Under the pieces are notes generated by a model that saw only the letters and a program-made list of their open reading frames with translations, ran no database searches and had not been told where the DNA came from. Position numbers and translations under genes: made by a program. A stretch of 36,711 nucleotides of DNA from Bacteroidales bacterium (GTDB lineage: Bacteria; Bacteroidota; Bacteroidia; Bacteroidales; Marinilabiliaceae). Position 1 is the first letter of the stretch, and the number at the start of each line of letters is the position of its first letter. The stretch covers positions 1 through 36,711 of the forward strand of contig JAKSLG010000024.1 of NCBI GenBank assembly GCA_024401295.1, read 5' to 3'. This document shows, piece after piece, positions 3,969-35,362 of this stretch.

Positions 3969-5996
3969 TTACTTGAGACTTGTGATTTTAACCTCTATGC
4001 GTCGGTTTTTCGCACGTCCTTCTTCGCTGTTGTTATCAGCAATCGGCTGTGTCTGTCCATAGCCTTTGTGAGTGATGCGCGAAGCTTCAATTCCGAGCGA
4101 TACGAGGGCATCGGCCGTCGTTTTTGCACGACGTTCGGAGAGTTTCTGATTGTAGTCGGCCTTACCCTCATTGTCTGTATGTCCACCAATTTCAATTCGC
4201 ATGGCGATATTGCTCTTCATGATGGCCGCAAGTCTCTTGAGTTCAATTTCTGATTCCGGCTTCAGGTCGGCCGAATTGGTATCGAAGAATATGTTTCGAA
4301 GTTCGATTTTCTGATTCACCTCGATTGGAGCCATTTCGATGTTGAGATGGTACTGTTCGATCTGCGATTTCGGGAGCGAGAAATTCTGTGAGTGATAGAG
4401 ATAGCCACGGCTGTCGGCAAAGAGGCCGTAGTCATAGCCAGCAGGCAATGTCACAATGAATTGTCCGGTTACAGGGTCGCTCGACGTACTGACCATTTTC
4501 TGATCGTCCTCAAGACGAACAAGTTCGATGCTGGCACCAAGCGGCTTCATCGTCTTGTGGTCATAGACATGACCTTTGATGTAGCCAACAGGCTCTGGTC
4601 GAAGCGATTGCGGAAGATCGAAGCAGAGAAGATCAATCTTGTTACGTCCATCAGGTTGCTGGCGCTGAGATGAAAAATATGCCATCGTACCTTGAGCATT
4701 GACGATGAATCCATTATTATCGAGCGGTGTGTTTATGGGATATCCGATATTCCTCGGAGTTGTCCATTTCCCATCATCGTTGAGACGGCTGATGAAGATA
4801 TCCTGTCCGCCAAGTCCAGGCCACATATCGGACGAGAAATAAAGCGTCTTATTGTCGGGATGGATGAAAGGCGACGTCTCGTCACCACGCGTGTTGATGG
4901 AATCGCCCAGATTTACTGCACTGCCAAACATCGGCACGCCATTGCTGCGCCAGCCAACGATCTGCGATTTCCAAATATCCATGCCGCCCTTACCGCCAGG
5001 GCGTGCACTGACAAAATACAATGTGCGGCCGTCGGACGAGAAGCAAGGCTGCGTCTCCCAGTACGGCGTATTGACATTATCACCGACATTGACAGGCGTA
5101 CTCCACCCATTGGCAGTGCGACGGCTGAAATAGATATCGCACGAACCTTTCGAATCATCGCGTCCGCAAGCCGTGAAAAACATGAAATTTCCATCCGGCG
5201 ACAGTGCCTGCGCACCCTCGTTGTTCTGAGTGTTGACTTCTGCCATGGCTAGAGGCTTTGACCATTCGCCATCAACCTTGCGTGTCACATAGAAATCTTC
5301 ATGAAAATATTCATACTTACGCGGGAGGTTCTTGTTTCGAGCAAAAGCACTGGCATCTCGCGGGAGAAGCATCGTAAAAACGAGTTCTTCCTCGTCGAGC
5401 GAAACACTTGGCCAATACTGATCATAATCCGTTGCGACATTTTCGGAAACCAAACGAGGCTCGAAAGGCACAGGATTGCTCATCAAATCCCTGATAACCA
5501 TGGCTCTCCTAATAAGCTCATCGGTATTTCTCGAATTACGTTTTCCGGCACTGAACTTCTTGTAGAGATCGAGCCATTCGAGAGCTTCTTCCATGCGGCC
5601 AAGAGACATCATCGCGACGCCCGCATTGTAATAAGCAGGTACAAAGCATGTTGAATCGAGAGTCACGGCTTTCTTAATGTTGGCAATCTGACCTTCATAA
5701 TCATTCAGCTCACGGCACACTTCGGACATGCCGAGAAAAGCCTCGACAAACTCCGGAGCAATTTTGCTTGCCGTTTCGAAACTCAGATAGGCCTTCTGAA
5801 AACGATCATACTGAAAATCATTCATTCCGATTTCGTATGCTTCGATAGCCTTTTTCGACTTGGTGCTATATTTCTGAGTCTCAGCCTTCTGCTTAACTTT
5901 TTGCTTATTTTTCTGAGCATCAGCATTTTGAATAGCGACACTCATAATCACAACGAACAAAAACGCCCTTAAGACAATCTTTACCATAGGATTCAT
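3969..5996 (-). CDS. OmpA-family envelope protein with TPR, PD40 propeller and carboxypeptidase-regulatory-like domains
   Basis: A 675-aa exported protein. A signal peptide (about 1-27, ending IQNADAQ) leads to TPR helices (about 45-165), a stretch of PD40/WD40-like beta-propeller repeats (about 185-445; repeated 'LSPDGNFMFFTA', 'FSSDGRTLYFVSARPGG', 'HPDNKTLYFSSD' blades), a carboxypeptidase-regulatory-like beta-sandwich (about 460-545) and a C-terminal OmpA domain (about 560-672). The OmpA domain has FFDTNSADLKPES, GGHTDNEG and NRRIEVKI, the peptidoglycan-binding signature. This architecture is common in Bacteroidota and resembles PorE/Pal-like proteins that tether outer-membrane complexes, including type IX secretion parts, to the wall. 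Whether this one belongs to T9SS cannot be told here. A -7 element lies just upstream. Confidence 0.88.
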   Translation of the reverse strand: MNPMVKIVLRAFLFVVIMSVAIQNADAQKNKQKVKQKAETQKYSTKSKKAIEAYEIGMNDFQYDRFQKAYLSFETASKIAPEFVEAFLGMSEVCRELNDYEGQIANIKKAVTLDSTCFVPAYYNAGVAMMSLGRMEEALEWLDLYKKFSAGKRNSRNTDELIRRAMVIRDLMSNPVPFEPRLVSENVATDYDQYWPSVSLDEEELVFTMLLPRDASAFARNKNLPRKYEYFHEDFYVTRKVDGEWSKPLAMAEVNTQNNEGAQALSPDGNFMFFTACGRDDSKGSCDIYFSRRTANGWSTPVNVGDNVNTPYWETQPCFSSDGRTLYFVSARPGGKGGMDIWKSQIVGWRSNGVPMFGSAVNLGDSINTRGDETSPFIHPDNKTLYFSSDMWPGLGGQDIFISRLNDDGKWTTPRNIGYPINTPLDNNGFIVNAQGTMAYFSSQRQQPDGRNKIDLLCFDLPQSLRPEPVGYIKGHVYDHKTMKPLGASIELVRLEDDQKMVSTSSDPVTGQFIVTLPAGYDYGLFADSRGYLYHSQNFSLPKSQIEQYHLNIEMAPIEVNQKIELRNIFFDTNSADLKPESEIELKRLAAIMKSNIAMRIEIGGHTDNEGKADYNQKLSERRAKTTADALVSLGIEASRITHKGYGQTQPIADNNSEEGRAKNRRIEVKITSLK

Positions 5997-23582: not shown

Positions 23583-24722
23583 ATGCGATCTATTATAACA
23601 TTGATACTTACGTTGAGTACATTGCTGTCATATTCGCAAGAGACGACAGGAGTGCCGAACCACCCGGATGAGGATTTTGTCGAGGTTGACGTTCTCATCA
23701 TTGGCACAGGTGAAGATTTCACTTCGTGCATGGGACATTCTGCATTACGGATGCAGTGTCCGACGCATAATCTCGACTATGTTTTTGACGTCGTGCAAGA
23801 AGACCTTGGGACAAACGCCTTTAGCTTCGCAAGAGGAAAACTGATGAGTTTCACAAACATAACGCCATCAGCCGAATACATTGACCGCTATATCTCTGAA
23901 GGACGAAGCATCATCGCATATAGACTCGACTTGCCTATTGCCACAAAGCAACGGCTTTGGGAAATAATGGACAAACATGCATCAGAAGATCCTCGACCGC
24001 TCACACGTCTGCACGAAAGCTGTTCCGGACGACTCTACGAATGGTTGCGAGAAGCGACAGAAGACAGCCTTGCTGTTGCTTGTTGGCCAAAACTCTTCGA
24101 GCGTTCGATATATGAGATGGGCTACACATACTATGGACGCAACTGGAGAAGATTTTTCTTTGGAACATTTGCACAGGGCAATACGATAGACGCGAATTTG
24201 CCTAACACCGAGAAGATTGTCATCCCGATGGCAATGGAAGAGGTTCTCAAAGTGACCGAGGCCCATGGCAGACCGATTATCCGCCAGAAAGAAATACTAA
24301 ATGCGCAAAAAAGCGACAATGACGACGACATTATCACACCAAGCCTTGTTGCCTTTCTGCTTTTCATCTTATCGCTTGCCAACTTCCGCATCAACAGCAA
24401 TGCGCTAAGCATGACCATTTTAGCATTTCCATTACTGATTGGTCTTATGACGACAATAACGGTCTTGGCAGCAAGAATTGAATGTTTGTCGTTCAACTGG
24501 CTGACAATACCATTTTCGCCACTTCCATGGCTATTTTATAAATACAGAAGATATTGGTTGTTGGGCATGAGCGTCATATGCCTTATCTGGAGTGCGGCAA
24601 TGCTGTCCACAAGTCACCAGATTGTACTCAACAGCCACATCATATTGGCATTGGCAACAGCATTTGCCTATGCCCAACTGGCATATTCCAACAAAAGAGA
24701 AAAAACAACACTCAATGAATAG
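23583..24722 (+). CDS. DUF4105 membrane protein, Lnb-like lipoprotein N-acyltransferase candidate
   Basis: A 379-aa protein. A signal sequence (1 to about 19, ending LLSYSQ) precedes a periplasmic DUF4105 domain (about 30-240). His52 in SCMGHSALRM and Cys147 in HESCSGRLYEWL look like the catalytic pair of a papain/NlpC-like thiol fold. After residue 250 there are four or five transmembrane helices. In Bacteroides a DUF4105 protein with this architecture (Lnb) was reported to N-acylate lipoproteins, since Bacteroidota lack Lnt. I infer the same role but cannot exclude a paralogue. The frame is open back to 23106, but the ATG at 23583 is preferred because it starts a signal peptide. It overlaps the next gene by 8 bases. 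Confidence 0.75.
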   Translation: MRSIITLILTLSTLLSYSQETTGVPNHPDEDFVEVDVLIIGTGEDFTSCMGHSALRMQCPTHNLDYVFDVVQEDLGTNAFSFARGKLMSFTNITPSAEYIDRYISEGRSIIAYRLDLPIATKQRLWEIMDKHASEDPRPLTRLHESCSGRLYEWLREATEDSLAVACWPKLFERSIYEMGYTYYGRNWRRFFFGTFAQGNTIDANLPNTEKIVIPMAMEEVLKVTEAHGRPIIRQKEILNAQKSDNDDDIITPSLVAFLLFILSLANFRINSNALSMTILAFPLLIGLMTTITVLAARIECLSFNWLTIPFSPLPWLFYKYRRYWLLGMSVICLIWSAAMLSTSHQIVLNSHIILALATAFAYAQLAYSNKREKTTLNE

Positions 24723-27700
24723 AATTACGACATTTAGATTTTCAGCAATTCTGTGTGCAATGGTGCTCATGTGCCAATACGCAATTGCAGGAGAAAAAAC
24801 CTTTCACGCAAGGGCAACTGTAAAAGTAGCAAGCGGAGAAGGAAAGGTTTACGTCACACCAGACGAAAGCAAGACCCCATCAGAAACAGACTATTCGACA
24901 AGTTCCTCCGCATCTGGCAAGGTAGAAAAAGATCGCAATGCTTCATCTGGCGATGTCACTTTCTACCTGTTTGCGAAACCGGATGCCGGATACAAGTTCA
25001 GTGGCTGGTATAACGAAGAAGCCTGTACAAGCGACGTCAGCGACAAGGCAGAAGCGAAAGTGGCTTTCACTTCAAAATCGGAAAAAGAAGATGCCCCCGC
25101 AACAAAAGATTATTTCGCAAAATTTGCGAGGATAAAGTATAATTCCGAACTGACAGTCGCTGTAGGCGAAGGCGAAGGTCTTGTTGCCGTTGACAAAGAT
25201 GCTGATGCAACTCCTGATTATTCCACCTCAGCGACCAAGTCCATTACTGATATCCAAGACCAACACTCATATTACATCAAGGCAAAAGCCGACTCGCACT
25301 ACGAATTTGTCGGATGGTATTCGGATGCCGACTGCCAGACACAAATTGCAACTAATGAAAATTACACATATTCCGTTGAGGCGACAAATGAAGATGAAGG
25401 TTCAACGCAGGTGTACATATACGCGAAATTCAGAGATGCAAGAATATATTATAAGTCAAAACTCACAGTCAGCGCGGTAGGCAAAGGACAGGTCTCTATA
25501 GCGACATCGGCTGATGGCGACAATATATTCGGCACGACATTGACGGCAGACAACGAAATCGCGGATGTTGACAAACATAAATACTATCTGAATGCTCGAC
25601 CGAACGCCATCACGCATTATTTTGCCGGATGGTACTCAGACGCAGAATGCAAGAATAAACTTTCAGATGATGCACAATTCGCATACGACGCACAGGCCGT
25701 AGACGGAGAGCCTACAGAGCAGACAGTTTATGCTAAATTCGCTGAATATGAATACAACTCGAAAATCAAGGTCATTGCAACAGGCAAAGGCAAGATTTTC
25801 GTTTCGAAAGATGCAGAAGAGAGTGCAACGTATACGACAGAAATGTCTGCTTCGCAAACAGGCAACAGTACAACTCAAAGCTACCATCTCAGCGCGCTTC
25901 CAGATAGCGACAATGATGAGTTTGAAGGCTGGTACAAAGATGCAGAATGTGAAGATCTCATATCGAAGGACCCGACCTATACCCACACCCTTACAGCCGT
26001 TTTGGGTGATGCTGGCGAAGTCGTCCTGTATGCGAAATTCATAACTCATGAAGGACAGATTGAATCGAAATTTACAGCGAGAGCCATCGGTAATGGTGAG
26101 GTTTTTGTCACGACAGAAGAGAATGGCACAGCAGCATATGCAAGTATGTCAAGCGTCAAGAAGACAAAAGGCATAAAGACATACTATTTGAATGCACAGG
26201 CAAAAGCCAACAACTACTTTGTCGGTTGGTACAAAGAATCTGAATGCAAGACGTTGCTTTCAAAAGATGCGAAATATACTCATACAGAGAGTGCTGCTGA
26301 AGCAAGCGCATCGCAGACGAACATATATGCAAAGTTCGCAGACATGTACCGTAGTTGCGTTGTCGTAGAGACGGCAGGAAACGGCAAGGTTTCCGTCAGA
26401 GACGAAGCTAACGGACAGCCTACATTCGGTTTAAGACAAAGCGCTACTCAATCTGGCAAAGATGCCACACATGTGTATATCATAGAGGCTTTGCCACAAG
26501 AAAGCTATACGTTTGCCGGCTGGTTTGCAGACGAGGCTTTGACGAACAAGATTGCCAACACGACAAAGTATGAAATGAGCGTCACCGGAACTGTTGGCAA
26601 ACCATCGGAGACCACTGTATATGCCAAGTTCGCAAGAAAAGAAAGCACATCAAAGATGAAAGCTGTAGCCGTTGGCGAAGGCACAATATTCGTCAGCGAA
26701 AATTCAAGCGAGGAACCGACATACACAGCCGAGATGGAATCGAGCCAATCATCAGTCGCCGATGTCCACACATACTACTTCAGTGCAGATGGCGATAACT
26801 TCAGAGGTTGGTATGCCGATGAAGCATGCAGCCAATTATTGTCGTTGCAGAAGAATATGGAGTACACAATCTTGGCAACCGACAATGAATCCGAAGCAAT
26901 AACCCTTTATGCCAAGTTCGAGGCTTATGACGCGCCAGAAGGTTCATTCCAGATACCAAACTCAGACTTCGAGTTATGGAACAAAAGTAAAGACGAACCA
27001 AATCCAGGATGGAATTCGTTCCCTTCTGCTGTGGGCAGTATGGCAGGTACAGGAAAATCGATGTCGCCATTTCCGTCTCAGGAAAAAGGCCGCGGCGGAG
27101 AAGGTTATGCGGTCAAGCTTTACTCGAAATATGCCGGAATGATGGGAATCGGCGCAAATGCCAACGGCAACCTTACTACTGGTATCATAAACATGGGCAA
27201 CATGGATCCTAAGGACCCTTCGAACCATAATTATACTGACGTAAACGATAAAAATCACCACGTAATTATAGCAGGTCAGCCAGATGCATTTGAATTCTAC
27301 AGCAAGTTCAAGGCAGGCACGGGCAACAGCAAGAAACTTGCTCATCTGCAAGCGACCATACATGACAAATACAAATACATCGATCCAGAAGTTGCAGCAA
27401 ACAAACCTCATCGAATTGCAAGCTGTAGCATCAACATCCAAGAATCGACAGATTGGGTCAGAAACGTGCAGCCGATAATCTATGAAAATGAATGGGATTT
27501 CGCAAAGGCCGCAGCTACCGACAAGTATATTCTCGCAACTTTCACGACAAACCAGATACCTGGTGAATCAAAGGACGATGAACTGATTATCGACGATGTC
27601 CGACTAATATATTATTCTGAAATTGCCCAGGCAAAATACAACGGATTGCCACTGACGTTTGTCGATGGCATGGCAAATGTCAAAGCTTCGTTTGACGAAT

Positions 27701-29997
27701 CAAAATTGAGCGTTGTTCTTAGTGGCCGAGGTGCAAAATGCACACAAAGCTTCAACCCATCAGAAGGATTGCTGACATTGCTTGTCGAAGGCGAAGATAT
27801 CGCCGTGAATAGCGAGAATTATCATGTCTATACGGTGCAATTCAACAAGGTATTGCCAGTCAAGCCTATTGATGCCGACGCAAATGCCGCTGCCGCATTC
27901 GAGACAAAGCATAAAGAGGTGCTCTGCATTGCGCCATATGAAGTCACAACGGCACAAAAGACCGCCATCAACGCGGCACTCGCTGATTATGCTGAACTGA
28001 GCGACAGAGCCAAGACGATCGTTGCCAGCGATAAAGATTTGCTTGATGCTCAAATGGCAACAATTGCAAAGATCGAGGAGAACGAAGCGAAAGCTGCTGA
28101 ATACAAGACGACATACAGCAATGTGCTGAACAAGACTTCCGTCACAATTGCCATCGGAGACAAGGGCGACGTCGAGAATGCACTTTCTGCATATTACGCT
28201 CTTGAGACTGATGTCAAATCGTTGCTTGAAACAGAGAGAAGCATCTTGTATAGCTTGATGAACAAAATCGACAAGCTGATTGCCGCTTCACAACAATCCG
28301 GCACTGAGAGCGAGGCCCAAAAGGCAGCCGACAAGTTCAGAGAGGACCATGCTGAAGCATTGTCGCTCTCGACAAACAACGTGACTACAGACGACAAAGT
28401 GATTGTTGAATCGGCTTTGGCTGCATTTGCCGAAATAAGCGATAGCGAGGTTATAGAATTGCTTGACGATGAAAAGATACTTCTTGAACAGCTAAAGCAA
28501 AAAATCGCCGACATCGAAGCCGAAAATGCCCATAAGGCAGAAGTCGAAGCTGCGGTGAATAAGTTCCGCACAGACAATGCATCAATTTTGGGCAAGACGG
28601 AAGAGACCGTTGCTACAAGTGATGAACAAGCATTGACTTCTGCTCTGACAGCATACGAGAATCAGACCGATGAAATCAAAACAATATTGGCCGAAGAGAA
28701 GATTAAACTCGACGACCTGAAAGTCAAGGTTGACGAATTGAAGATTATTGAGGCTATAGAGGCTGCAGCAACGGAATTCCGCACTAACAATGCAGCCGCA
28801 TTGGCTTTGACAATCGAAACGGTCAAAATGAACGACGAGGACATTATTCAAACAGCTTTGAATACGTATGATGAGCTGAGCGAAGAAGTCAAGGCAAAAG
28901 TTGCAACGGAAAAAGAACTTCTCGATAATCTCCGCATAAGAATTGAAGAACTGAAGACTGCCGAAAACAACAGATTGGCTGCCGAAGCATTTAGAAATGC
29001 ACATAGCGAGGTTTTGGCACTCACGACAGAAAGCGTTGCCATAAGCGATGAGGACGGCATCGACGTAGCTGTTGAGGAATACAGAATGCTCGATATCGAC
29101 GTGAAGGCGTTGCTCTCGGATGAGAAAGACCTGCTCGATATCCTGAAAACGAAAATCGCCGAACAGAAGGAAGCCGAGAAGATCGCTGCAGAGTTGAACA
29201 CCGCGATTGAAAAATTCCGTGCAAACAATTCAGCAGCATTGGCTTTGACAGTTGAAACAGTCTCGCTTGCCGACGAGAAGACAATCAACAATGCCATAAC
29301 CGCATACAACAAGCTGAAAGACAACGAAAAAGACGCTCTATCAGCCGAGAAGGCATTGCTTGACAGCCTCAGCCTCAAGATTGCACAAATAAAAGATAAA
29401 AACGCGAAGGACGAAGAGCTCAAAGAGCTGATCATCAAGAATGAAGCTGAAGCTAAAAAGTTCAATGAGGACTTCGCTAAAGTGCTCAATCTGAACGACG
29501 AGACGGTTATGGTATACCACCTCGAAGATGTAAATGCAGCTTTGGCAGAATATGAGACCAAGAGCGACTCCGTCAAGACGTTGCTTGAGGATACGAAAGC
29601 GACACTCGACATGCTTATTGACGTGATCAGCACGCTTAATCCTAACGTGAGCGAGGCCGACAGAAACATTGCCGACAAGTTCCGCATCCAATATGGAGGC
29701 ATTCTTTCTCGCACATTGGATGAAATCGAAGGCGATCACCGTAAGGTTGTCCAAAAGGCGCTGAAAGCATTTGATGGAATCTCGGCCGGCGCACAAAGCG
29801 ATCTTGTTCGAGAGAAGAACAAGCTGGAAATGTTCTTGAAGAGAATAGATGTCATTGATCCGATAACAGCCATCGAGGATGTCCTCGTGGACAAAGACAA
29901 TTCAAAAGTCATCTACGACATTCAGGGACGACGACTGACAGAGATAACAAGACCTGGCATATACATCGTCAACGGCAAGAAGATACTCGTCAAGTAA
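24715..29997 (+). CDS. Giant multi-repeat surface protein (InlB-like repeats, PCMD-like domain, helical repeats)
   Basis: A 1760-aa exported protein. Signal peptide about 1-25 (ends CQYAIAG). Residues 26-738: seven repeats of about 95-115 aa, each with G.G.V.V, a YY.L.A strand, an F.GWY.D..C motif and a closing YAKF, resembling InlB B-repeats. Residues about 741-968: a PCMD-like jelly-roll (IPNSDFELWN to DELIIDDVRLIYY). About 969-1045: a small beta domain. About 1045-1722: nine helical repeats of 70-80 aa with the consensus FR..N...LAL..ETV...D...I..AL..Y. The C-terminus (DIQGRRLTEITRPGIYIVNG, then KKILVK) resembles the sorting tail common on Prevotella/Bacteroides secreted proteins. It is probably a cell-surface stalk or adhesin. 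The start at 24715 lies inside the end of the Lnb-like gene; the frame is open farther upstream, but this ATG begins the signal peptide. Confidence 0.85.
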   Translation: MNRITTFRFSAILCAMVLMCQYAIAGEKTFHARATVKVASGEGKVYVTPDESKTPSETDYSTSSSASGKVEKDRNASSGDVTFYLFAKPDAGYKFSGWYNEEACTSDVSDKAEAKVAFTSKSEKEDAPATKDYFAKFARIKYNSELTVAVGEGEGLVAVDKDADATPDYSTSATKSITDIQDQHSYYIKAKADSHYEFVGWYSDADCQTQIATNENYTYSVEATNEDEGSTQVYIYAKFRDARIYYKSKLTVSAVGKGQVSIATSADGDNIFGTTLTADNEIADVDKHKYYLNARPNAITHYFAGWYSDAECKNKLSDDAQFAYDAQAVDGEPTEQTVYAKFAEYEYNSKIKVIATGKGKIFVSKDAEESATYTTEMSASQTGNSTTQSYHLSALPDSDNDEFEGWYKDAECEDLISKDPTYTHTLTAVLGDAGEVVLYAKFITHEGQIESKFTARAIGNGEVFVTTEENGTAAYASMSSVKKTKGIKTYYLNAQAKANNYFVGWYKESECKTLLSKDAKYTHTESAAEASASQTNIYAKFADMYRSCVVVETAGNGKVSVRDEANGQPTFGLRQSATQSGKDATHVYIIEALPQESYTFAGWFADEALTNKIANTTKYEMSVTGTVGKPSETTVYAKFARKESTSKMKAVAVGEGTIFVSENSSEEPTYTAEMESSQSSVADVHTYYFSADGDNFRGWYADEACSQLLSLQKNMEYTILATDNESEAITLYAKFEAYDAPEGSFQIPNSDFELWNKSKDEPNPGWNSFPSAVGSMAGTGKSMSPFPSQEKGRGGEGYAVKLYSKYAGMMGIGANANGNLTTGIINMGNMDPKDPSNHNYTDVNDKNHHVIIAGQPDAFEFYSKFKAGTGNSKKLAHLQATIHDKYKYIDPEVAANKPHRIASCSINIQESTDWVRNVQPIIYENEWDFAKAAATDKYILATFTTNQIPGESKDDELIIDDVRLIYYSEIAQAKYNGLPLTFVDGMANVKASFDESKLSVVLSGRGAKCTQSFNPSEGLLTLLVEGEDIAVNSENYHVYTVQFNKVLPVKPIDADANAAAAFETKHKEVLCIAPYEVTTAQKTAINAALADYAELSDRAKTIVASDKDLLDAQMATIAKIEENEAKAAEYKTTYSNVLNKTSVTIAIGDKGDVENALSAYYALETDVKSLLETERSILYSLMNKIDKLIAASQQSGTESEAQKAADKFREDHAEALSLSTNNVTTDDKVIVESALAAFAEISDSEVIELLDDEKILLEQLKQKIADIEAENAHKAEVEAAVNKFRTDNASILGKTEETVATSDEQALTSALTAYENQTDEIKTILAEEKIKLDDLKVKVDELKIIEAIEAAATEFRTNNAAALALTIETVKMNDEDIIQTALNTYDELSEEVKAKVATEKELLDNLRIRIEELKTAENNRLAAEAFRNAHSEVLALTTESVAISDEDGIDVAVEEYRMLDIDVKALLSDEKDLLDILKTKIAEQKEAEKIAAELNTAIEKFRANNSAALALTVETVSLADEKTINNAITAYNKLKDNEKDALSAEKALLDSLSLKIAQIKDKNAKDEELKELIIKNEAEAKKFNEDFAKVLNLNDETVMVYHLEDVNAALAEYETKSDSVKTLLEDTKATLDMLIDVISTLNPNVSEADRNIADKFRIQYGGILSRTLDEIEGDHRKVVQKALKAFDGISAGAQSDLVREKNKLEMFLKRIDVIDPITAIEDVLVDKDNSKVIYDIQGRRLTEITRPGIYIVNGKKILVK
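24790..26928 (+). repeat. Seven InlB-like beta repeats encoded in tandem
   Basis: Approximate repeat boundaries: 24790-25131, 25132-25437, 25438-25743, 25744-26043, 26044-26343, 26344-26637, 26638-26928. Each carries one F-x-G-W-(Y/F) motif; six have a cysteine four or five residues later, while the sixth (FAGWFADEAL) has lost it. The repeats have diverged at DNA level, so they are old and not prone to slippage. Confidence 0.85.
27850..29880 (+). repeat. Nine helical repeats encoded in tandem
   Basis: Nine units of about 70-80 codons with a shared pattern: FR..NA..LAL, then (E/D)TV...D, then I..AL..Y, then a charged helix EK.LLD.LK.KI. Predicted to form three-helix bundles or an extended rod. 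Units four to seven are most alike; the first, second, eighth and ninth are more diverged. Confidence 0.8.
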
Positions 29998-32300: not shown

Positions 32301-32363
32301 CTTCACCCCTAACTCCTTAATGTCCGCACCAGCACAAAATCGTCACTGGAAAGTAAAATTTTT

Positions 32364-32438
32364 ATTTTAGTTGCCGATGACTGCGAGATAGGTTTTGACA
32401 ACAAGATCCCAATGTGGCTTTTCGGGTTGATGTACTGA
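32364..32438 (+). repeat. 75-bp direct repeat, copy 1 (DR1)
   Basis: Twenty-five codons ending in TGA; the encoded peptide begins ILVADDCEIGFDNKIP and ends LFGLMY. Compared with DR2 it differs at 32378, 32382 and 32408. It begins 64 bases after the GNAT stop codon. Its parent gene is not recognised. Confidence 0.9.
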
Positions 32439-32532
32439 ACTATGTGCCAGTTTGTATGCATATTTATTAGCATTATTTGCACAAGAAATATGAATAGTTT
32501 CGTAAAAGCAAAATAGTTTCGGTTGTTATTAT

Positions 32533-32540
32533 TACTTTTG
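32533..32540 (+). promoter_or_regulatory. -7 element of DUF3800 cassette, copy 1
   Basis: TACTTTTG matches TAnnTTTG. The predicted start site (about 32545) is almost at the ATG of the short ORF at 32547, so that ORF would be nearly leaderless. No -33 TTTG is seen. Confidence 0.45.
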
Positions 32541-32546
32541 TATTAA

Positions 32547-32606
32547 ATGTTGCACTACAATTTCGACCAGTGCAAGTTCCCGAAAGACGAGGAAGAAGAA
32601 TTGTGA
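32547..32606 (+). CDS. 19-codon upstream ORF coupled to DUF3800, copy 1
   Basis: Encodes MLHYNFDQCKFPKDEEEEL, with an in-frame TAA directly before the ATG. Its TGA overlaps a GTG (32603) that opens the DUF3800 frame, and its acidic tail is encoded by a purine-rich stretch (AGGAAGAAGAA) placed like a ribosome binding site for that GTG. It may be a coupling leader peptide. Alternatively it is the true N-terminus of the DUF3800 protein, split by a frameshift. Too short to classify. Confidence 0.4.
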   Translation: MLHYNFDQCKFPKDEEEEL

Positions 32607-33397
32607 AGAAAACTGAAGATATAAAGGCATATTACTTCTTTGATGAAGCTGGCGATCCTCAGATATTGGGAAAGAGGGGTGTCAATCTCATCGAGAGAGG
32701 AACTGCGAGCAAGACGTTTATGGTTGGATATTTGGAAACAAAGGATCCTATGTCTTTTCGCAGAGCTCTCATCCAACTGCATGAGAAGATAAAAAATGAT
32801 GACTATCTTGCTGATATACCATCAATAAACAGCACCAACAAATCCTTTCATGCCAACAAGGACTGCCAGGAAGTAAGAAGTGAAGTGTTTCGTCTTCTTA
32901 AAAAAATTGATTTCAAGTTCTATTGCATAGTTGCAAGGAAAGATGAGGATATTTTCCGTAGGATGTTTGATCTAAAAGACAAGAAAATCTACAAATACCT
33001 CGTAAGCAAACTACTTGAAAACCGCCTTCATCTTTACAAAGACATTGACATCTATTTCTCTGCAATGGGCAACGTTGTGCGTCAGGATACTATGCAGGAG
33101 GCAGTAAACAATGCCATTAGCACGTTCATAAACAAATGGAATTACGACAACTCTTCCACGATTCGAATACTTATCCAGCAAAACAGCGAGGAACCTCTAC
33201 TACAGGCAGCCGACTACGTGCTATGGACTATCCAAAGGGCTTATGAGCGTGGAGAATTCAGGTATTATAATTATTTGAAAGACAAGATTGCATTGGTTCA
33301 TGATATCTTTGACACAAGATACTATCACACAAAAGGTCAAAGCAACTATTATACACCAAACAATCAGCTAGAGGCAAAAAAAATAGACCCTGTATAA
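32603..33397 (+). CDS. DUF3800 family protein, copy 1
   Basis: A protein of about 264 aa. The N-terminal KAYYFFDEAGDPQ carries the DE-G-D motif, and the C-terminal LLQAADYVLWTIQRAYERG carries the Q-x-x-D motif of DUF3800. These acidic residues have been likened to an RNase H-like nuclease centre, but no activity is established to my knowledge. DUF3800 genes often turn up next to restriction-modification and other defence genes, as here with hsdS. I prefer the GTG at 32603, which has a purine-rich site before it and overlaps the upstream ORF stop. A GTG at 32570 would add an arginine-rich extension of 11 residues. The protein is identical to copy 2. Confidence 0.82.
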   Translation: MKKTEDIKAYYFFDEAGDPQILGKRGVNLIERGTASKTFMVGYLETKDPMSFRRALIQLHEKIKNDDYLADIPSINSTNKSFHANKDCQEVRSEVFRLLKKIDFKFYCIVARKDEDIFRRMFDLKDKKIYKYLVSKLLENRLHLYKDIDIYFSAMGNVVRQDTMQEAVNNAISTFINKWNYDNSSTIRILIQQNSEEPLLQAADYVLWTIQRAYERGEFRYYNYLKDKIALVHDIFDTRYYHTKGQSNYYTPNNQLEAKKIDPV

Positions 33398-33451
33398 GAC
33401 TAGGTACAAAAACTGTACGCATGGCATGGGGCCCACTTTCATCTTAATAGG

Positions 33452-33479
33452 ATCTTGACTGCAAGATTACGATTTTTTT
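33452..33479 (+). terminator. Weak terminator-like hairpin after DUF3800, copy 1
   Basis: ATCTTG (33452-33457) and CAAGAT (33462-33467) form a 6-bp stem with loop ACTG. A T7 run follows five bases later (33473-33479). The stem is short, so termination may be partial. Confidence 0.45.
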
Positions 33480-33588
33480 GTCAACAATACAAGATACTAC
33501 TCTAAATTTTGCATTTTCCTCTACCATATTTAACATTTATATAAAGAGAACAGCCCAATAAACTATGATTGACAAACATCTATAAAAA

Positions 33589-33657
33589 GCTCACCCTCTT
33601 GCCGAACAACACCGCATCGTTGCGAAGATAGAAGAACTCTTTGGTATATTTAAATAA
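33589..33657 (+). pseudogene. hsdS 3'-terminal remnant, copy 1
   Basis: The frame reads AHPLAEQHRIVAKIEELFGI and ends FK-stop. PLAEQHRIVAKIE is the conserved motif after a target recognition domain in type I specificity subunits. Nothing upstream continues the gene, so it is a 23-codon relic, on the strand opposite to the intact hsdS at the right edge. Confidence 0.8.
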
Positions 33658-33733
33658 GAAACATTTTTGCAAGATTGATAACAAACGAAATAAACCAACT
33701 GTTTTTAAGGTCTGCCGATTATTTATTCTCGAG

Positions 33734-33808
33734 ATTTTAGTTGCCGACGACCGCGAGATAGGTTTTGACAACAAGATTCCAATGTGGCTTTTCGGGTTGA
33801 TGTACTGA
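33734..33808 (+). repeat. 75-bp direct repeat, copy 2 (DR2), hybrid of DR1 and DR3
   Basis: Its left part equals DR3 at the three sites where DR1 and DR3 differ, and its right part equals DR1 at the site (33796) where DR3 has A. It is therefore the junction of the duplication. The 25-codon frame with TGA is intact. Confidence 0.9.
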
Positions 33809-33902
33809 ACTATGTGCCAGTTTGTATGCATATTTATTAGCATTATTTGCACAAGAAATATGAATAGTTTCGTAAAAGCAAAATAGTTTCGGTTGTTATT
33901 AT

Positions 33903-33910
33903 TACTTTTG
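33903..33910 (+). promoter_or_regulatory. -7 element of DUF3800 cassette, copy 2
   Basis: TACTTTTG, identical to the copy at 32533-32540, in the second unit. Confidence 0.45.
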
Positions 33911-33916
33911 TATTAA

Positions 33917-33976
33917 ATGTTGCACTACAATTTCGACCAGTGCAAGTTCCCGAAAGACGAGGAAGAAGAATTGTGA
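33917..33976 (+). CDS. 19-codon upstream ORF coupled to DUF3800, copy 2
   Basis: Identical to the ORF at 32547-32606, with the same TTGTGA overlap onto the DUF3800 start. Confidence 0.4.
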   Translation: MLHYNFDQCKFPKDEEEEL

Positions 33977-34767
33977 AGAAAACTGAAGATATAAAGGCAT
34001 ATTACTTCTTTGATGAAGCTGGCGATCCTCAGATATTGGGAAAGAGGGGTGTCAATCTCATCGAGAGAGGAACTGCGAGCAAGACGTTTATGGTTGGATA
34101 TTTGGAAACAAAGGATCCTATGTCTTTTCGCAGAGCTCTCATCCAACTGCATGAGAAGATAAAAAATGATGACTATCTTGCTGATATACCATCAATAAAC
34201 AGCACCAACAAATCCTTTCATGCCAACAAGGACTGCCAGGAAGTAAGAAGTGAAGTGTTTCGTCTTCTTAAAAAAATTGATTTCAAGTTCTATTGCATAG
34301 TTGCAAGGAAAGATGAGGATATTTTCCGTAGGATGTTTGATCTAAAAGACAAGAAAATCTACAAATACCTCGTAAGCAAACTACTTGAAAACCGCCTTCA
34401 TCTTTACAAAGACATTGACATCTATTTCTCTGCAATGGGCAACGTTGTGCGTCAGGATACTATGCAGGAGGCAGTAAACAATGCCATTAGCACGTTCATA
34501 AACAAATGGAATTACGACAACTCTTCCACGATTCGAATACTTATCCAGCAAAACAGCGAGGAACCTCTACTACAGGCAGCCGACTACGTGCTATGGACTA
34601 TCCAAAGGGCTTATGAGCGTGGAGAATTCAGGTATTATAATTATTTGAAAGACAAGATTGCATTGGTTCATGATATCTTTGACACAAGATACTATCACAC
34701 AAAAGGTCAAAGCAACTATTATACACCAAACAATCAGCTAGAGGCAAAAAAAATAGACCCTGTATAA
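33973..34767 (+). CDS. DUF3800 family protein, copy 2
   Basis: The encoded protein is identical to that of copy 1, including the DEAGD and QAADY motifs and the purine-rich site before the GTG start at 33973 (alternative GTG at 33940). The lack of divergence means the duplication is very recent, is kept uniform by recombination, or reflects collapse or expansion during assembly; the repeat-junction pattern favours a real event. Confidence 0.82.
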   Translation: MKKTEDIKAYYFFDEAGDPQILGKRGVNLIERGTASKTFMVGYLETKDPMSFRRALIQLHEKIKNDDYLADIPSINSTNKSFHANKDCQEVRSEVFRLLKKIDFKFYCIVARKDEDIFRRMFDLKDKKIYKYLVSKLLENRLHLYKDIDIYFSAMGNVVRQDTMQEAVNNAISTFINKWNYDNSSTIRILIQQNSEEPLLQAADYVLWTIQRAYERGEFRYYNYLKDKIALVHDIFDTRYYHTKGQSNYYTPNNQLEAKKIDPV

Positions 34768-34821
34768 GACTAGGTACAAAAACTGTACGCATGGCATGGG
34801 GCCCACTTTCATCTTAATAGG

Positions 34822-34849
34822 ATCTTGACTGCAAGATTACGATTTTTTT
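34822..34849 (+). terminator. Weak terminator-like hairpin after DUF3800, copy 2
   Basis: The same 6-bp stem and T7 run as at 33452-33479, in the second unit. Confidence 0.45.
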
Positions 34850-34958
34850 GTCAACAATACAAGATACTACTCTAAATTTTGCATTTTCCTCTACCATATT
34901 TAACATTTATATAAAGAGAACAGCCCAATAAACTATGATTGACAAACATCTATAAAAA

Positions 34959-35027
34959 GCTCACCCTCTTGCCGAACAACACCGCATCGTTGCGAAGATA
35001 GAAGAACTCTTTGGTATATTTAAATAA
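34959..35027 (+). pseudogene. hsdS 3'-terminal remnant, copy 2
   Basis: Identical to 33589-33657. It encodes PLAEQHRIVAKIEELFGI then FK-stop, with no upstream specificity gene in this orientation. Confidence 0.8.
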
Positions 35028-35103
35028 GAAACATTTTTGCAAGATTGATAACAAACGAAATAAACCAACTGTTTTTAAGGTCTGCCGATTATTTATTCTC
35101 GAG

Positions 35104-35178
35104 ATTTTAGTTGCCGACGACCGCGAGATAGGTTTTGACAACAAGATTCCAATGTGGCTTTTCGGATTGATGTACTGA
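35104..35178 (+). repeat. 75-bp direct repeat, copy 3 (DR3)
   Basis: Matches DR2 except for A at 35166 (a synonymous GGG to GGA change). Similarity to the other copies ends exactly at the TGA stop codon, after which the sequence is unrelated. Confidence 0.9.
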
Positions 35179-35280: not shown

Positions 35281-35331
35281 GCAAGGCTGGAGCCTTGCTT
35301 TTAGCTTCGGCGTAGGCTAGAGCCTACGCCG
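35281..35331. repeat. Two REP-like perfect palindromes
   Basis: GCAAGGCT-GG-AGCCTTGC (35281-35298) and CGGCGTAGGCT-AG-AGCCTACGCCG (35308-35331) share the core GGCT-nn-AGCC and lie 9 bases apart. The first is followed by TTTTA and could weakly terminate plus-strand transcripts. GGCGTAGGC occurs again at 35233-35241. They look like short interspersed palindromic repeats. Confidence 0.7.
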
Positions 35332-35362
35332 GACAGAGGAACGAACACGAATTGTCATGAAT

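Follow-up and report, generated by a model that had tools for sequence, protein, structure and literature searches.

A tandem duplication of a DUF3800 gene with a conserved structured RNA at its 3′ end among restriction-modification relics in a Bacteroidales bacterium

A DUF3800 gene is present in two tandem copies near one end of a contig from a Bacteroidales bacterium of the Marinilabiliaceae (GenBank assembly GCA_024401295.1, contig JAKSLG010000024.1), and each copy carries a predicted structured RNA across its stop codon. The window analyzed here is this one entire contig (36,711 nucleotides) of an assembly of 2.3 Mb in 40 contigs that is 75% complete. Comparison of the two units revealed a near-perfect tandem repeat of 1.37 kb, in which 1367 of 1370 positions are equal; the only differences (at 32378, 32382 and 32408) are all within the left part of the first of three 75-bp direct repeats (DR1, DR2 and DR3), which lie in register at a spacing of 1370 and 1370 bp. 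Such a repeat cannot be of chance origin, and the tandem duplication is real within the assembly and ordinary in mechanism. An earlier note on this DNA, made from the sequence alone, had described two 1370-bp units between three 75-bp direct repeats, and its coordinates and spacing were verified. Each unit contains, in this order, the 3′ end of an ATPase gene, a relic of the modification gene hsdM, an intact DUF3800 gene, the 80-nt structured RNA and a relic of the specificity gene hsdS (Table 1).

The DUF3800 protein matched Pfam family PF12686 with 36.3 bits against a cut-off of 21 (E 1.1e-8). The longest frame with a start codon opens at 32570; alignment with relatives favors the later GTG start given in Table 1. 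Residues D14, E15, D18 and D204 are among those invariant in 16 DUF3800 relatives. The three best matches in the PDB to a weak predicted model of the protein were RNase HII (two chains, E 1.2e-4) and RNase H3 (E 1.9e-3), and an RNase H fold is stated for DUF3800 in two papers (PMC10910872, PMC12669027). The protein may thus well have an RNase H-like nuclease fold. In the portions of the literature consulted, no tested function was found for a DUF3800 protein. Relatives were detected at E 1e-5 in 7 of 198 genomes, the source genome included, and at the same threshold in none of 14 other genomes of the genus. The closest proteins, 59-69% identical over the best segment, belong to one Paludibacteraceae, four Treponema and two Fibrobacter genomes.

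The DNA around the end of the gene is conserved beyond the coding sequence: among six loci, identity was 0.75-0.87 over a stretch that starts in the last codons and reaches some 54 nt beyond the stop codon, and 0.19-0.47 thereafter. The predicted fold of the 80-nt RNA is a three-way junction, in which P1 joins the last codons and the stop codon to a downstream strand, P2 is a hairpin and P3 consists of GGC/GCC with a conserved loop. The RNA was present at the end of the DUF3800 gene in all seven near relatives, and these, together with the window, supplied the eight sequences of the first covariance model. Applied to ten further DUF3800 loci outside the model set, this model found the RNA in ten out of ten at the 3′ end of the gene and on the correct strand (E values from 1.4e-11 to 0.0023); the run produced one stray match, at E 0.72. 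At E values up to 5 the model was silent on control loci with ATPase genes or their remnants (L034 and L095-L097; loci are numbered with the prefix L and genomes with G) and found the RNA at none of three loci with distant DUF3800 proteins (L039-L041, 23-28% identity).

Covariation was evaluated in three alignments. In that of 19 RNAs (18 distinct), which was fitted to the model, 86.9% of cells pair and 19 of 23 pairs have changed on both sides; none of 500 shuffles reached these values and slid versions gave at most 42.1%. A structure-blind MAFFT alignment, covering P1 and P3 only, gave 85.4% of cells pairing and 12 of 16 pairs changed on both sides, with four measures that beat all shuffles and one, further pair types, that does not (286/500). 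The set of 28 distinct rows from the phylum search described below, likewise fitted and with some members shared, yielded 79.4% and 20 of 23, respectively, and P2 and P3 are kept nearly throughout these rows. Overall, the data demonstrate that the RNA is conserved and covarying at the end of the DUF3800 gene. A structured RNA upstream of the gene was also considered and rejected, since the 164 nt preceding DUF3800 folded no better than shuffles (z 0.29); a terminator was rejected as no U-run was seen by eye after the RNA.

The neighborhoods of DUF3800 were analyzed at 17 loci (L043-L049 and L110-L119) using phmmer with restriction-modification (R-M) queries, and Pfam for a few open reading frames (ORFs) only. 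Same-strand R-M genes were found at eight of the 17, and in five of these DUF3800 lies between modification or specificity genes and a restriction gene. The order hsdS-DUF3800-hsdR occurs in three Treponema loci (L044, L047 and L049) and in L117, where it extends to hsdM-hsdS-DUF3800-hsdR with 2 bp between hsdS and DUF3800; at these four loci the gene is an accessory inside a type I hsd operon. L115 has the order methylase-DUF3800-ResIII. At the remaining three the R-M genes are upstream: hsdS and a ResIII helicase in L113, an Eco57I-type methylase in L110 and a type ISP enzyme in L116. In L111, SIR2 and HerA-type genes precede DUF3800, and in L112 a gene with an FRG domain is located approximately 3 kb away. 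By the same searches no R-M genes were found at L043, L045, L046, L048, L112, L114, L118 and L119. L046 had been considered as a type III mod/res pair and was rejected, its genes being an SNF2/ResIII helicase on the other strand and an ORF with no Pfam match.

In the window the DUF3800 gene stands between relics of hsdM and hsdS, as in a decayed operon. The hsdM relic (NFDQCKFPKDEEEEL) shares 13 of 15 residues with the hsdM product of L019 (tblastn, E 7e-7) and 11 of 15 with that of L018 (E 5e-5), both queries being N6_Mtase/HsdM_N proteins from genomes of the same order; its stop codon (32604-32606) shares bases with the GTG at 32603 that is the likely start of DUF3800. The live hsdS gene next to the array, in which the contig ends at 36711, faces the array from the opposite strand. 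Because the order is ATPase end, hsdM end, DUF3800, hsdS end, the cassette is best read as the debris of a type I R-M operon in which DUF3800 is the one gene left intact. The R-M link is therefore stronger than the earlier note had it, with an hsdM relic 5′ and an hsdS relic 3′ of DUF3800.

Table 1. Features of the duplicated DUF3800 array and its surroundings in the window
Feature	Position	Strand	Basis
Unit 1 (DR1 and cassette)	32364..33733	+	unit comparison, 1370 bp
Unit 2	33734..35103	+	unit comparison, 1370 bp
ATPase leader relic fused to the 3′ end of the gene	32338..32363	+	blastn to G005 leader 27/30, adjoining 3′-end match 69/71
DR1, last 24 codons and stop of the ATPase gene	32364..32438	+	repeat comparison, homologue match
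DR2	33734..33808	+	repeat comparison
DR3	35104..35178	+	78-bp match at 96% to G005 ATPase gene, few bases beyond stop
hsdM relic copy 1, 15 codons and stop (NFDQCKFPKDEEEEL)	32559..32606	+	tblastn with hsdM of L019 and L018
hsdM relic copy 2	33929..33976	+	unit identity
DUF3800 copy 1, 264 amino acids, likely GTG start 32603	32603..33397	+	Pfam PF12686; start from alignment of relatives
DUF3800 copy 2, same as copy 1	33973..34767	+	sequence identity
Structured RNA copy 1, 5′ strand formed by last DUF3800 codons and stop	33379..33458	+	alignment, covariance model
Structured RNA copy 2, same as copy 1	34749..34828	+	unit identity
hsdS 3′-end relic copy 1, interrupted by stop codons	33454..33657	+	tblastn with window hsdS, E 5e-8
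hsdS 3′-end relic copy 2	34824..35027	+	unit identity
Type I specificity gene hsdS, cut by contig end	35363..36711	-	Pfam PF01420, E 1.2e-28

Translated in frame, the 75-bp repeat reads ILVADDxEIGFDNKIPMWLFGLMY followed by a stop codon. It was searched for in 198 genomes, the source genome included, with two candidates scored per genome, so that further copies may be missed. Two of the 197 other genomes gave a match: G005, from the same genus (78 bp at 96%), and G150, from the same order (77 bp at 77%). In each case the matching stretch closes an intact ATPase gene and has no cargo; the G005 product matches AAA_14, with DUF4143 just under the cut-off, and that of G150 matches AAA_14. The same conserved C-terminal end is shared by ATPase paralogues of the genus, in which other 3′ remnants of such genes are also present; the neighbors of three of these (L095-L097) were, by eye and from the first residues of the ORFs only, neither R-M genes nor DUF3800. 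Left of DR1 a piece of the ATPase leader is fused to the 3′ end of the gene, so that, compared with G005, some 1.15 kb of the gene's interior is missing. Since intact homologues end in the repeat sequence and a leader is fused left of DR1, the 75-bp repeats are relics of a deleted AAA_14/DUF4143 ATPase gene and not att sites. Genes of this kind are the source of the repeats, and just their 3′ end, plus a bit of leader at DR1, is seen here. On the same strand, 3′ of the G005 ATPase gene, there follow hsdM, two DUF1016 genes, hsdS, an RVT_1 gene and hsdR. The RVT_1 gene (L034:1594-3096) is a reverse-transcriptase ORF that separates hsdS from hsdR in this type I R-M operon, and the leader upstream of the same ATPase gene (L067 and L009) contains three copies of TGGAAAGTAAAA, 33 nt apart.

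The repeats differ in a way that bears on how the duplication arose. DR1 and DR3 have different bases at four sites (15, 19, 45 and 63), and DR2 has the DR3 base at 15, 19 and 45 and the DR1 base at 63; the earlier note had read this mosaic correctly. At these sites the G005 homologue has C, T, T and G, and DR2 has C, C, T and G; relative to G005, DR1 is altered at 15 and 45 and DR3 at 19 and 63. The A of DR3 at site 63 looks derived because G005 has the base of DR1 and DR2 there. The pattern fits the proposal of the earlier note that DR2 is a recombination hybrid; site 63 (32426, 33796 and 35166) is the single site that speaks for a hybrid, and a private mutation of DR3 explains it equally well. 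DR2 may thus represent a hybrid of DR3 and DR1 or the state of DR3 prior to its last mutation; recombination at the repeats is compatible with both. An exchange between DR1 and DR3 yields the observed array, in line with the earlier suggestion that a single cassette was duplicated by unequal crossover; the exact point of exchange given then (32409-32425) is uncertain. DR1 and DR3 have diverged at 4 of 75 sites, and the identity of the two units places the duplication well after that divergence. The duplication is best explained by homologous exchange between the repeats, and by the same process copies might still be gained or lost, which keeps the earlier suggestion of a variable copy number plausible.

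Two other accounts of the array were weighed. The genome is incomplete and in 40 contigs, so a cell with one unit might have given a contig with two. We regard such an assembly artefact as improbable: stretches identical between DR1 and DR3 do not exceed 25 bp, and an assembler using longer words should need real junction reads to produce DR2. The earlier note had also proposed a mobile cassette, in which the 75-bp repeats would be recombination sites that move DUF3800 cargo. Direct repeats do flank the cassette and DUF3800 is scattered over distant phyla, but the repeats correspond to the end of an ATPase coding sequence, and the search of 197 genomes for the repeat with other cargo returned just the two cargo-free ATPase ends described above, two candidates having been scored per genome. 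A collection of plasmids gave no DNA match at E 1e-5, no exact match to the repeat core was present in IMG/VR, and no recombinase was seen in the ORF lists of the window, in which no targeted search was made. At the protein level, plasmids gave one weak partial match, phage records none, and viral contigs no match to the single protein and one partial match to the alignment. Carriage by a plasmid or phage was rejected on account of these at most weak or partial protein matches and the lack of a plasmid DNA match; att-like repeats were rejected, as far as tested, because they are ATPase gene ends. A mobile cassette is, in our view, very improbable.

The RNA is not confined to DUF3800 genes. A second model was run on 395 genomes of the phylum with stricter filters and at most 11 candidates scored per genome, and it gave 29 matches in 26 genomes, two of them the window copies. 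Seventeen of the 27 non-window matches have DUF3800, or a piece of it, directly 5′ (seven of these, L110-L116, were in the model set), and ten lack it according to a profile of 16 proteins applied to flanks of 1.5 kb. Outside the model set, DUF3800 is nearly whole in L138 and L146, split into two frames in L142, and in pieces in L122, L123, L125, L130, L134, L148 and L149. In L144 an RNA without DUF3800 (1501-1589) has a methylase/Bro-N pair on one side and a ResIII gene on the other, the same place that DUF3800 and its RNA occupy in L115. The RNA thus often outlives the DUF3800 protein, and this speaks against a pure untranslated-region element. In IMG/VR the exact core pattern of the RNA was found in 19 stretches; two of the viral matches to the RNA model (L154 and L156) are the same sequence.

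Several single observations were made on these RNAs. In L130, L134 and L148 only some 54 C-terminal residues of DUF3800 remain ahead of the RNA, the gene having decayed and its 3′ end having stayed together with the RNA. The last DUF3800 codons are seemingly kept, by eye, in L139 and L141, which have no DUF3800 by profile. The lone RNAs of L131, L137 and L140 have an altered P3 loop and lie about 180 nt past an ORF for a PemK-like toxin (Pfam for L131 only). On one viral contig (L164) the RNA match at 1212-1278 comes within 5 nt of a tRNA gene that is encoded on the opposite strand.

The RNA was compared with Rfam 15 at the gathering score, and with permissive scans for the window, L043-L046, L048, L115 and L116. 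No family reached the gathering score at the place of the RNA in the window, L043-L049, L110-L119 or 20 further loci. The permissive scans gave nothing at that place in the window, L043-L046 and L048, and overlaps at chance level in L115 and L116 (E 2.7-9.3, far under threshold), one of which, in L115, was a same-strand hit to RAGATH-14 (13.2 bits of 149.1). The Rfam series of DUF3800 motifs runs from I to XI, and a study of 224 candidate structured RNAs is said to have named them. DUF3800-I (RF02969), DUF3800-IX (RF02968) and DUF3800-XI (RF02975) are likewise small structured RNAs named after nearby DUF3800 genes. The stop-spanning core of the RNA described here, CGGCNUGNAGCCGACNUUCA, is unlike DUF3800-XI, the single DUF3800 alignment compared. 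L046 carries DUF3800-XI (5914-5964) as a separate element approximately 130 nt past the DUF3800 gene that bears the new RNA.

Likeness to other systems can be seen in the protein and in its position. In the PADLOC database the protein matched PDLC02917 (E 3e-26), and all six proteins tested were assigned to DUF3800_VII, a label which we take to denote retron type VII. The retron reading was rejected because no RVT_1 reverse transcriptase was found in the 75%-complete assembly; our literature search found no paper joining DUF3800 with a retron, and papers on DUF3800 and restriction were, by title, on other subjects. According to the two papers cited above, DUF3800 is found beside Cas12a2, where earlier candidate RNAs near DUF3800 are also cited (PMC10910872), and is an accessory of CRISPR types V-A2 and VI-F (PMC12669027); what the present protein would share with those nucleases is an RNase H fold, here a candidate one, and an accessory place in nucleic-acid immunity. 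Unlike the CRISPR accessories, DUF3800 here accompanies R-M genes and is without a TPR part. RloC, PrrC and other rlo genes are accessory genes inside hsd operons; DUF3800 resembles them as an extra gene between hsd genes and a candidate backup effector, and differs in being another protein family with its own RNA. Type III toxin-antitoxin systems, whose antitoxin RNAs are tandem repeats upstream of the toxin gene, likewise combine a nuclease with a structured RNA, but the RNA here is single for each gene and 3′, with no upstream repeat array.

We estimate at about one half the probability that DUF3800 is a nuclease paired with an RNA of its own and serves as an accessory linked to R-M, the module having been duplicated by way of flanking ATPase relics. 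Relatives of the pair are met repeatedly as putative accessories at loci of R-M and of other defence systems. At first a single DUF3800 gene with its RNA would have lain between two 75-bp relics, both from one ATPase gene, and homologous recombination between these relics, by unequal exchange or slippage, would have duplicated the module. The nuclease would most likely bind and process its own 3′ RNA, and the pair would act in defence as an RNA-controlled effector tied to the R-M system. A wider interpretation is held more tentatively: the uncatalogued module might be a ribonucleoprotein of an RNase H-fold DUF3800 and the three-way-junction RNA and might be shared by several R-M types, possibly type I beside hsdS, type III-like methylase/ResIII and, in the vicinity, Eco57I-like and ISP enzymes, and serve as an RNA-controlled second defence when restriction fails.

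A number of observations weigh against an RNA-controlled accessory of R-M. The predicted structure of DUF3800 is weak, with a mean predicted local distance difference test score of 60.2 and a predicted template modelling score of 0.65. Eight of the 17 loci have no R-M or SIR2-HerA neighbor, these being raw counts with no background rate, and the three Treponema loci with hsdS look like one system, in two of which (L047 and L049) DUF3800 is broken. Among the 20 RNA matches outside the model set, ten are without DUF3800 and seven are with pieces only, and five of 20 viral loci match the RNA model (E < 1e-5), none of them beside DUF3800 by profile. As to the fold, five of the 15 pairs of P1, several of them outer, are unpaired in 20-23 of the 28 phylum rows, and single sequences from the window, L044 and L049 (three of seven) fold no better than shuffles. 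No hsdM was found at a threshold of E 0.001 in the 75%-complete assembly; 13 of the 14 control genomes gave one in this search. The live R-M system may therefore lack parts or be missing from the assembled contigs.

Two further explanations concern the RNA itself. The pair could be a toxin-antitoxin system, with DUF3800 as a nuclease toxin and the 3′ RNA as a type III-like antitoxin, forming an addiction or backup module near R-M. One gene with one RNA, the scattered distribution across phyla, the retention of the RNA where the protein is lost or truncated, and the ORF for a PemK-like toxin near the lone RNA of L131 all suit such a system, but an RNA that is single and overlaps the 3′ end of its gene departs from the upstream tandem repeats of type III antitoxins, and we consider this explanation unlikely. 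Alternatively, the RNA could be a mere element of the 3′ untranslated region of the DUF3800 mRNA, involved in processing, stability or autoregulation, and DUF3800 an ordinary orphan gene. This is what would be expected from an RNA that starts at the stop codon or immediately to either side of it (computed for 13 loci) and lies at the end of the gene in 17 of 17 DUF3800 loci. It is made doubtful by the ten of 27 non-window RNAs without DUF3800 and by L144, where the RNA without DUF3800 holds the place of the complete pair in L115.

Two side observations concern the rest of the window. A dispersed repeat of about 60 bp lies at 35281-35339; further copies are present at G000:C4:69550-69610 and in several additional genomes of the same genus. 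A very long open frame (24592-29997, 1801 codons) contains repeated domains and resembles, by eye, a surface-type protein.

Published work has already linked DUF3800 to candidate RNAs and to CRISPR loci. What deserves attention here is a covarying RNA without an Rfam match above threshold at the stop codon of DUF3800, in a lineage that recurs inside R-M operons. With a defined pair, a fixed geometry and a place in R-M operons, it can be tested whether the putative nuclease uses its own 3′ RNA and whether it acts when restriction fails, and the duplication provides a natural two-dose case.

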